DNA of 64,000 nucleotides, taken from positions 15,599,318 through 15,663,317 of the forward strand of contig NC_091147.1 in the NCBI RefSeq assembly GCF_041381155.1. The letters run 5' to 3'. Within the stretch, counting starts at the first letter, position 1. Every line of letters starts with the position of its first letter. The DNA comes from Argopecten irradians (Eukaryota > Mollusca > Bivalvia > Pectinida > Pectinidae). The position numbers and the translations under genes were made by a program. Below, piece after piece: positions 5,475 through 63,415 of the stretch. The notes beneath the pieces are model-generated. The model saw nothing but the letters and a program-made list of their open reading frames with translations. It did not search any database and had not been told where the DNA came from.

Positions 5475-5538
5475 CCAATGAAAATCTCTTCCTGCGGAGG
5501 ATTCTGAGTGAGTTGGCCACGTGACCTGAGATATATAA
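5475..5538 (+). promoter_or_regulatory. Core promoter of gene B: CCAAT, GCGGA, TATA
   Basis: CCAAT at 5475-5479, GCGGAGGATT at 5494-5503, TATATAA at 5532-5538, about 70 bp before the ATG. The same ordered trio precedes C, D, E, F and G. Confidence 0.75.
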
Positions 5539-5607
5539 CTACACGGATGCTCAGTAATCTAGTAACACACTTGAGTAGGAACGTTAGAACGAACTCACGA
5601 CGACAAG

Positions 5608-8600
5608 ATGAGAGAAATAGTCCACCTACAGGCCGGCCAATGTGGAAATCAAATCGGAGCAAAGGTCAGAATCTAATTAAGTTTACATGGAAATGTTTAA
5701 TGAATTCGATTTCTAGTTAAATAAGTTGTTCCCATAGTTTACCAGCGAGAAATAGATTCTCATCCATCATGTACAAAATCTCGTTATTTCAAACAGTCTG
5801 AAGTAAAGTAATCAGAAACGTATTCTTTTTTACTTTTTATTTGCTTTTTATTACAAATATATATGAAAAGTCTATCTATATAACGAATGTGTAATTGAAG
5901 TATGTGTATATATTCTTGTACTTACTTACCGGACGGATGTCGACAGCCGTCGGCAGCCTTCTAGACCAGCTGTTTCATCTTGCCTTGTATAATAATCTAA
6001 ACATTATTCTAAATTTGCCGGCAATATCTGTATATTGTCTCTTGAAAAGCTCTAATCAGTTAAAACTGAATGTATGTGTAATTATGATTGTGGAAAGAGA
6101 AAATGAAAAACATATGGCATGATCCCAGAGAAAAGTTCAAAAGTCGCACGCATGTACGCACACATACGTGTAACCTATTGATGCCAAGGGATAGCTGCAC
6201 ATGTGTTTAAGTGACTCACAGAGAGACAGATAATAATAGCCTAACCCTATCATCATGACATGATTTTAATACAGTGAAAGTTACATCTCAGTAATGTATA
6301 AAGTAATGGGAGCATTGATTCTCCTAGATTCTCCAATTAATCCTTCTATACAGCTTTCCCCGTAATATTAATTAGTAGAATCAACGGAGAATGTATCATC
6401 TGTGACTAAAATGTACATTGTGTACTGTATAAGAATCTCACACAAATTAATTATCCGGGGTTTCGCATTTCATCCGTGAAATGTTTGCTTTTATCTTGGC
6501 ATTTTACCAGAAACGTTCTAATATTTGCTTACTCATACATCGATGTTCGTACAGACCGCGTGCACGTGATGTCTGGAATTATCTAAGTTATTTGTCAGAA
6601 ATCACCGTTAGGTAACTTTCTATCTCATAGTTATGACCATAAGTATGAGAACATTATATAAACGTTGCTTAGTAACATGCTAGGACATATATATAAGGTC
6701 AATGACTCGAGTGTCGTTATTATATTCCTTATCTAATTAAGGAAAATTATATGATCTAATAGTACACAGATAATCTAGTTTGAAAACATGCCCCATGCAA
6801 TAGGCATAATTAAAGTCTCAAAGCTAGATCGCAAATGGTTTTTTTTTTTTTTTTTTGTAATTCACGCACGCGAAATTCATTGCACATAACCCAGTGTTAC
6901 TGTCGATACAGCCGAATGCACATTGTTTGTGCTAAATCCTAAAGACTTTTGTTTTTGTTATAATGAGTTTGTATTCGAATGGGTACATTTTATCCATTAA
7001 GATATTAAAAAAACATATATACAAGACTTACCTTTGTTAACACTGATTCTGCAAATGAAAATAATAATGATTACATATTCATATTTTTACATGTTCTCTT
7101 CTTCAGCTTGTAAAATCTGACTGACTTTGATGATCAATGCTTTACTATATATATACGTGGTTTTAAAACTTTCCACATATTTGAAGTTTTGTCAGTGATG
7201 TTATGTGACCGTAATGTTATTGTCCGTGATATGTTGTATGTCATTAATGTTATGTGTCCGTATGTTACAGTTCTGGGAAGTGATATCTGACGAACACGGT
7301 ATAGACCCCACAGGTTCCTACAATGGAGATAATGTACTACAATTGGAGCGTATAGATGTCTACTTCACAGAGGCCTCAGGTTTGTACTAGAAATATACAG
7401 ACATCAGCTTGTGTTGTTTTATGTCAGGGTCCAGTTTCCTTAAACAGTTCCTTAACAGTATCCCTTAACTTAAAATTTTCCATAGGGAAGCATTACGGAT
7501 TTTAAGGAAGTCTCCTTAACTTAAGATTTTTAGCTCACCTGGCCGAAGGGCCGGTGAGCTTATGTCATGGCGCGGCGTCCGTCGTCCGTCCGTCAACATT
7601 TCCTTTAAATCGCTACTTGTCATAGAGTTCTGCATGGATTGTTACCAAATTTGGCCAGAAACATTCTTGGGGGAAGGGGAACAGAACTTGTATAAATTTT
7701 GGCTCTGACCCCCCGGGGGCAGGAGGGGCGGGGCCCAATAGGGGAAATAAAAGTAACTTCTATAAATTGCAACTTGTCCTAGAGTTATGCATGGATTGTA
7801 ACCAAACTTGACCAGAAACATCCTAGGGGGAAGTGGAACACAACTTGAATAAATTTTGGCTCTGACCCCCCGGGATCAGGAGGGGCGGGGCCCAATATGG
7901 GAAATAAAGGTAGATCCTATAAATCGCTACTTGTCCTAGAGTTATGCATGGATTGTAACCAAATTTGACCAGAAACATCCTTGGGGGAAGAGGAACAGAA
8001 CTTGTATAAATTTTGGCTCTGACCCCCCGGGGGCAGGAGGGGCGGGGCCCAATAGGGGAAATTAAGGTAGATCCTATAAATCGCTACTTGTTGGAGTTCT
8101 GCATGGATTTTAACCAAATTTGGCAAGAAACATCCTTTGGGGGGGGAAGGGGAACAGAACTTGTATAAATTTTGGCTTTGACCCCAAGGGGGCAGGAGGG
8201 GCGGGGCCAAATAGGGGAAATAGAGGTAAATCTTATAAATCGCTACTTGTCCTAGAGTTATGCATGGATTGTAACCAAACTTGGCCAGAAACATCCTTGG
8301 GGGAAGGGGAACAGAACTTGTATAAATTTTGGCTCTGAACCCCCGAGGGCAGGAGCGGCGGGGCCCAATAGGGGAAATAAAGGTAAATGCTATAAAACGC
8401 TACTTGTCATAGAGTTCTGCATGGATTGTAACCAAATTTGGCCAGAAACATTGTTCCTGTATCAGATATAAAAGTAACAGTTTGCCACTAGTGTTGATGT
8501 TCTTTCAGAAAACAACGTGAATCATATGGAACTAAAAATAACCTCAGATTTGTATACGAAATTGACATAAAATAGCATTATTTGTGTCATAGGCCGTGGC

Positions 8601-62500: not shown

Positions 62501-63348
62501 TATTTGCGAATGTTAAAATTAAAGACTCAAAAAAGAAATAATGAACATATGCCTTCATGAACAATTATTTGCACATGCCATTTTTACATATCTTATATTG
62601 GGAAACAAGAAAGCAAGCTATGGTAAATGCTGATTTTCGCCCCCAAAAAGCCATCAACCACAATGCGATAAAGATGTCGCTGCATCTGTCTCGGGTCAGA
62701 TTCTTTAGTTTGTCATAACCGACAAGGTACATTGCTATACAAACCATCATTTGCAAAGATGCATTCATCACTAGAAGAGACTTGGCTCATGTTACCTTAT
62801 CAACATTCTCAAAGAAGCAACGATGGATAACGCATTATTTTTCTACAGGCCTCATCACACAACATACGCAAAGGTGGTAGTCACATGCACAATACCAAGG
62901 TATCATCTAGATTTGGAACCAACAAGACAGTTTTGATGAGCGCATATTTTGGTGGGAACGTTATCCTATGTTCTTACAGGGTGTTATATTTACTGTGTGA
63001 TAAATATTTACTTTCCCTTTAATATGTGTGTACGGCGAGTGATGTCCTTTGTTTGTTGAAGACCTATTGACCGCTATTGGACACTCTATCGATAAGTTGA
63101 CGATTACCCACACGTGTCCTTATAAAATTGGACTGAGTAAAGCGTCCCTGGTAACGGACAATCGATACCTATGTAACACACACCAATACATATCTCCTCA
63201 CTTATACACAACAATTTCGCAGAAAAATTATAAAAATTTTCACTATCTAATAATTTTGTTTTCACATTTTATCCATTTTTGTTTTAGGTGTTTTGCTGAT
63301 ATTATCAGGAGGACATTGTCAAAAAATAGTTCCTTCAACAGCTTGTGT

Positions 63349-63415
63349 CCAATCACAGCGAGCCATCTTTGCGGAAGAATAAACAACAATAACAAATAGG
63401 ACATGGGTATAAATA
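63349..63415 (+). promoter_or_regulatory. Core promoter of gene G: CCAAT, GCGGA, TATA
   Basis: CCAAT at 63349-63353, GCGGAAGAAT at 63371-63380 (22 bp start to start), TATAAATA at 63408-63415, 87 bp before the ATG. Confidence 0.75.

Follow-up and report, generated by a model that had tools for sequence, protein, structure and literature searches.

The window analysed here, a stretch of 64,000 nucleotides from Argopecten irradians (C14:15599318-15663317), is part of a tandem beta-tubulin gene array that extends over C14:15543523-15686791, as delimited by matches to exon 1 and exon 2, and that holds at least 15 second exons and at least 14 first exons, both counts being lower bounds. Seven beta-tubulin genes, here called A to G, fall in the window, together with the first exons of six of them, whose start codons are at window positions 5608 (B), 20577 (C) and 30226 (D) on the plus strand, 44531 (E) and 55158 (F) on the minus strand, and 63502 (G) on the plus strand. 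Gene A is represented by exons 2-4 at 858-2979, with no recognisable exon 1 across the 7.5 kb upstream, and is either a copy without its 5' end or a gene with an unusual start; 'all six' promoters are therefore all six that have a start. In exon 2 of gene F (51085-51110, minus strand) a run of A differs by one base in length from that of the other five window copies, shifting the frame after F-W-E, which reflects either a broken copy or an error in the assembly. Tandem repeats, in or between the tubulin genes, occupy 7601-8451 (157-bp unit), 9366-9875 (42 bp), 16866-17266 (13/29/42 bp) and 46778-47065 (59/88/147 bp). Three genes beyond the window, named by their C14 coordinates 15589718, 15673137 (also H) and 15682056 (also I), belong to the same block as B to G. 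At the locus of this genome that best fits the scallop myosin regulatory light chain, on C11, the exons match at 73-90%, which points to a mollusc, probably a bivalve.

Upstream of each of the six start codons, a CCAAT box, a GCGGA box and a TATA or TATA-like box follow one another on the strand of the gene. In gene B the CCAAT box (AGCCAATGA, 5475-5479) is followed at 19 bp, start to start, by the GCGGA box (GCGGAGGA, 5494-5501) and then by a TATA box at 5532-5539; gene D has its CCAAT at 30105-30109, the same GCGGA form (GCGGAGGA) 22 bp on at 30127-30134, and TATA at 30155-30162. In gene C an upstream element, AAATAGTAC (20396-20404), begins 24 bp before the CCAAT box (20420-20424), with the GCGGA box (GCGGATGA, 20442-20449) a further 22 bp along and the TATA-like box, in the weak form TATTTATA, at 20484-20491. 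Gene G is built alike, with AAATAGTTC at 63324-63332, 25 bp before CCAAT (63349-63353), then the GCGGA box (GCGGAAGA, 63371-63378) at 22 bp and TATA at 63408-63415. On the minus strand, genes E and F both carry AAATAGTCC 23 bp before CCAAT and the GCGGA box in the form GCGGAAGGA 16 bp after it: in E the upstream element, CCAAT, GCGGA and TATA boxes lie at 44676-44684, 44657-44661, 44637-44645 and 44602-44609, and in F at 55301-55309, 55282-55286, 55262-55270 and 55227-55234.

The first-pass annotation had reported CCAAT followed by GCGGA(A/G/T)GA in one order and on one strand before all six genes. Order and strand hold throughout, and the motif as printed fits B, C, D and G (4/6) but not the GCGGAAGGA of E and F. 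Its start-to-start spacings (19, 22, 22, 16, 16 and 22 bp for B to G) are reproduced exactly, and the TATA-like box begins 38, 42, 28, 36, 36 and 37 bp past the start of GCGGA, within the 28-42 bp that it had given. Over the six genes the distance from CCAAT to TATA is 50-64 bp and that from TATA to ATG 71-94 bp. As an observation on the genes of the window, the set of promoter boxes is real and confirmed.

A further element had been missed. The sequence AAATAGTNC starts 23-25 bp before CCAAT in five of the nine block promoters (C, E, F, G and 15682056), and near-matches, judged by eye, stand at that same position in 15589718 (AAATAATCC) and 15673137 (ACATAGTCC); also by eye, gene B has the reverse complement, GGACTAT, at 5449-5455, some 26 bp before its CCAAT. 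Within a 3-bp range of offsets AAATAG occurs in 5/9 promoters, a number reached by none of 1000 dinucleotide-shuffled sets (the best set had four, once), and when F and H are dropped because they are relatives of E it occurs in 4/7, which one of 1000 shuffled sets reached; these figures, like every shuffle figure given here, overstate the case, as the nine promoters share an origin by duplication and so are not independent observations.

The pair of CCAAT and GCGGA extends past both edges of the window, to the next start on the left, 15589718 (22 bp apart), and to H and I on the right (13 bp in each), and is thus found at 9/9 starts of one contiguous block, 15589718-15682056. A TATA-like box accompanies it in eight of these nine; in H no TATA was found, and its CCAAT sits in a poor context (ATCCAATAG). 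At the five starts of the neighbouring upstream block (C14:15543523-15573975) the pair does not occur, so it must be dispensable for beta-tubulin transcription in general. The 15-gene array therefore consists of two promoter classes, one block without the pair and one with it, a split from which the two parts would be expected to differ in expression. Identity at third codon positions reaches as much as 92% between coding exons on the two sides of this split (G against 15573975). Among dispersed beta-tubulin genes, the pair as written is present in none of the six that have a start; C14:13085967 carries CCAATCAGAAGCGTTGACGGAAGGA, an E/F-like form with ACGGA, and at C7:30528910 GCGGAAGG is followed by an inverted CCAAT. 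Two beta-like loci, at C12:904 kb and on C360, were excluded from the promoter counts, as exon 1 was not found in the stretches examined.

What might bind these boxes can be approached from their flanks. The NF-Y-type CCAAT consensus is RRCCAATSR, and it is matched in 6/9 block promoters (all but F, G and H) against 15 of the 131 CCAATs in the window, the window's own promoters being among the 131; the looser RNCCAATSA, a form settled on only after the sequences had been inspected, is matched in 8/9 (all but H) against 18/131 on the same basis. As CCAAT also lies on the gene strand in all nine, the earlier naming of this site as an NF-Y box is borne out in most copies, and NF-Y is likely to be the factor at CCAAT, judging from these flanks. 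The suggestion that GCGGA resembles an ETS-type site fared less well. ETS-family sites read C/A-GGA(A/T)-G, and ETS proteins need the GGA(A/T) core: GCGGAAG in E, F, G, H and I and GCGGATG in C and 15589718 have it, whereas B and D read GCGGAGG and lack the core in the aligned register, which makes an ETS protein unlikely as the sole answer. Over the nine promoters GCGGA is preceded by T, G or C and followed by AG, GG or TG. None of Sp1, E2F, YY1, MEF2 and SRF, compared by eye through their consensus sequences, seemed to fit all copies.

Nor is the spacing fixed, as had been claimed: over the nine block promoters it is 13, 13, 16, 16, 19, 22, 22, 22 and 22 bp. Composite NF-Y elements of fixed spacing, such as the ERSE (CCAAT-N9-CCACG) and the X-Y box of MHC class II genes, need a near-constant distance; the array promoters share with them the pairing of a CCAAT box with another site in one defined orientation but differ in a start-to-start spacing that ranges from 13 to 22 bp and in the sequence of the partner. 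Of the proposed shared module, then, the promoter-like part remains, with its boxes on one strand, a TATA that follows them, an ATG 71-94 bp beyond TATA in the window genes and mostly NF-Y-type flanks, and the fixed spacing and the ETS assignment fall away.

A closer parallel is to be found in the layout of mouse promoters. There, NF-Y motifs peak at -76 and TATA at -36, while near -62, in the GC-box region, lies a motif that includes the 6-mers AGGCGG/TCCGCC (the latter being GGCGGA reversed) (PMC2249607). The array matches this layout in having CCAAT, a GCGGA-containing box and TATA in the same order, at distances that are close provided that transcription begins some 30 bp past TATA, and in the NF-Y-type flanks of most copies; it differs in that a literal GGCGGA is present in only three of nine copies (E, F and 15589718) and in the addition of AAATAGTNC in five. 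In zebrafish embryos, according to another study, enrichment of CCAAT is associated with genes of fast-cycling cells, and TATA with genes of cells that cycle slowly and differentiate (PMC7470974). Since the module has both CCAAT and TATA, expression cannot be predicted from it. Among the open-access papers listed by our searches, none dealt with this promoter module or with mollusc tubulin promoters.

The reading that we favour, with a probability of roughly 0.72, is that the boxes form an NF-Y-type core promoter that was inherited through tandem duplication and kept by selection. They would serve one sub-block of the beta-tubulin array as its proximal promoter, in which the TATA box, whose position is plain in the sequence, would set the start site; if that start is taken to lie about 30 bp after TATA, CCAAT would fall at about -80 to -94 and GCGGA at about -58 to -72. 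NF-Y would open the chromatin and recruit TFIID, while the GCGGA box might be bound by some activator of the GC-rich-site or GGA type, acting as a helper whose distance can vary by several bases, and AAATAGTNC, 23-25 bp before CCAAT in five of the nine copies, would be a further element of the layout. The copies would have taken this layout from a common ancestral promoter, and selection would then have preserved the boxes as their surroundings drifted, in nearly all pairs, to the level of random sequence. All of this looks like standard core-promoter architecture met in a new place; it does not look like a novel type of switch, and introduces no new mechanism.

Could the boxes have come together by chance, and been noticed because six short sequences were searched so closely? 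Both CCAAT and TATA occur often, and the motif was picked after the fact. The pattern CCAAT-N8-25-GCGGADGA, however, occurs four times in the window against 0.03 expected, and a search meant to allow for such after-the-fact choice, which scored every ordered pair of 5-mers at a distance of 8-30 bp (tolerance 7 bp) within 200 bp upstream of the six genes, returned CCAAT/GCGGA as the sole pair in 6/6 promoters (5/5 without F). With equal freedom the best pair reached at most four in 100 dinucleotide-shuffled sets, and thus never 6/6, and at most four when 100 sets were drawn, each of five random stretches of the window, never 5/5; of the nine block promoters, zero or one had the pair in each of 1000 shuffled sets, against nine of nine in the real one, with the same overstatement as above. 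The three promoters outside the window, unseen when the claim was made, also have the pair, which disfavours chance further, and we give coincidence a negligible probability. It is less easy to dismiss the idea that the boxes are passive leftovers of recent duplication with no maintained function, as the carriers that were found all sit side by side in one array, the closest variant (ACGGA at C14:13085967), some 2.5 Mb distant, is a relative of the E/F type, and E and F are 87% identical over 149-151 bp. Global alignments of the 45 pairs among ten promoters (the nine of the block and C14:13085967), scored against shuffles with a cut-off of z=3, leave E-F as the one pair above it between 180 and 45 bp before CCAAT; in the 90 bp that follow the GCGGA box, E-F is joined by B-D alone, and weakly (3.7). 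Between the two boxes the pairs above z=3 are E-F and each of these with C14:13085967, and in the 43 bp before CCAAT, where AAATAGTNC sits, there are nine. The earlier remark that the surroundings are otherwise unrelated except in E/F therefore holds, with the addition of the faint B-D resemblance after GCGGA and the extra shared element before CCAAT. Moreover, the boxes are intact in gene B, the copy that is most different at third codon positions, where (exons 1-3) it matches other array copies at only 0.62-0.71. Purifying selection on a promoter would be expected to leave just this, boxes kept amid flanks that are largely random, and we regard passive inheritance as unlikely. In a coding tree of exons 1-3, built from 19 of the 22 genes (the other three, with no exon 3 available, were omitted; A and C360 are without exon 1), the module carriers do not fall together. 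The tree speaks neither for nor against inheritance of the promoter because all of its support values but one are below 70. A repeat or mobile element as the source found no echo in a genome search that skips very common words, in which the 161-bp E promoter matched only itself and F.

The first-pass annotation had favoured a dedicated composite code for the co-expression of cytoskeletal genes and proposed that the spaced pair be sought at alpha-tubulin. Nine neighbouring genes with equal boxes, order and strand and an additional positioned element are what such a code might look like within the array. Outside it, CCAAT-N8-17-GCGGA was found on neither strand in the stretches examined at 12 alpha-tubulin loci (L079-L090), and CCAAT-N5-20-GCGGA in none of the 12 inferred 200-bp alpha promoters (the starts of L087 and L090 being doubtful), where CCAAT in one orientation is present in six and GCGGA in three; to these may be added the upstream cluster and dispersed beta-tubulin genes, without the pair as written. 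Over 846 Mb, the loose pair CCAAT-N8-20-GCGGADGA is somewhat above control (228 matches in all against 164), with repeated copies of one sequence among the matches listed (about 100 places). The strict pair, CCAATSA-N8-15-GCGGANGA, gives 24 matches, four in the array and 20 outside (control 14), and a script scan found neither TATA[A/T]A nor TTTAAA in any of those 20 up to 80 bp from the start of CCAAT, whereas by eye three of the four array matches would pass, the one that fails being C with its TATTTATA. The full module, CCAATSA-N6-15-GCGGADG-N18-45-TATAWA, returns 12 rows at 11 distinct places (control 2), six of them in the array (B, D, E, F, G and I) and five outside; the block promoters that miss the pattern are C (TATTTATA), 15589718 (TTTAAATA) and H. 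Finally, the three-box form ATAGT-CCAAT-GCGGA has 29 matches, six in the array (C, E, F, G, H and I) and 23 outside, the latter below the control of 54. The layout is very dense in the array and elsewhere little or not enriched, at most modestly above control. A genome-wide regulon was not visible at the strictnesses searched, with the loosest pattern still in unexplained excess, and a cytoskeletal code working through the pair, which is missing from the alpha-tubulin stretches examined and from five genes of the same array, is in our judgement quite improbable. It is tempting to speculate instead that a lineage-particular code of four boxes (AAATAGTNC, CCAAT, GCGGA and TATA) marks the one contiguous sub-block and switches it as a unit apart from its neighbour, with the CCAAT-GCGGA distance in 3-bp steps (13, 16, 19, 22) hinting at a spacing rule or step-wise slippage. 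Indeed, with the ACGGA form of C14:13085967 included, the ten spacings (13, 13, 16, 16, 16, 19, 22, 22, 22 and 22 bp) are all 1 modulo 3, a regularity that may be due to chance, given only four distinct values and shared ancestry, and we hold this further idea to be doubtful as well.

If the boxes are an inherited and selected core promoter, the array offers a clean natural case of paralogous footprinting, in which the promoters of tandem copies, by now mostly at random level, keep three or four short boxes, so that likely functional sites can be read without recourse to another species.

A separate observation concerns the interval between the divergent genes F and G, where a tandem array with units of about 35/70 bp (59024-59437) carries sites such as GTTGCCCATGGTAAC, with a 3-bp spacer, which are X-box-like by the RFX consensus. 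Six of the 24 X-box-like matches in the window (at most one mismatch) fall in a stretch of about 290 bp here, and a 270-bp query from the repeat found only this place and adjacent repeat units in a genome search that skips very common words. The repeat may be an RFX enhancer with a ciliary role, or else a satellite that resembles one by chance. An X-box-like site, GTTACATAGCAAC, is also present at -96 from the ATG of the dispersed beta-tubulin gene C7:44028419 (L075), which is possibly a ciliary isotype.
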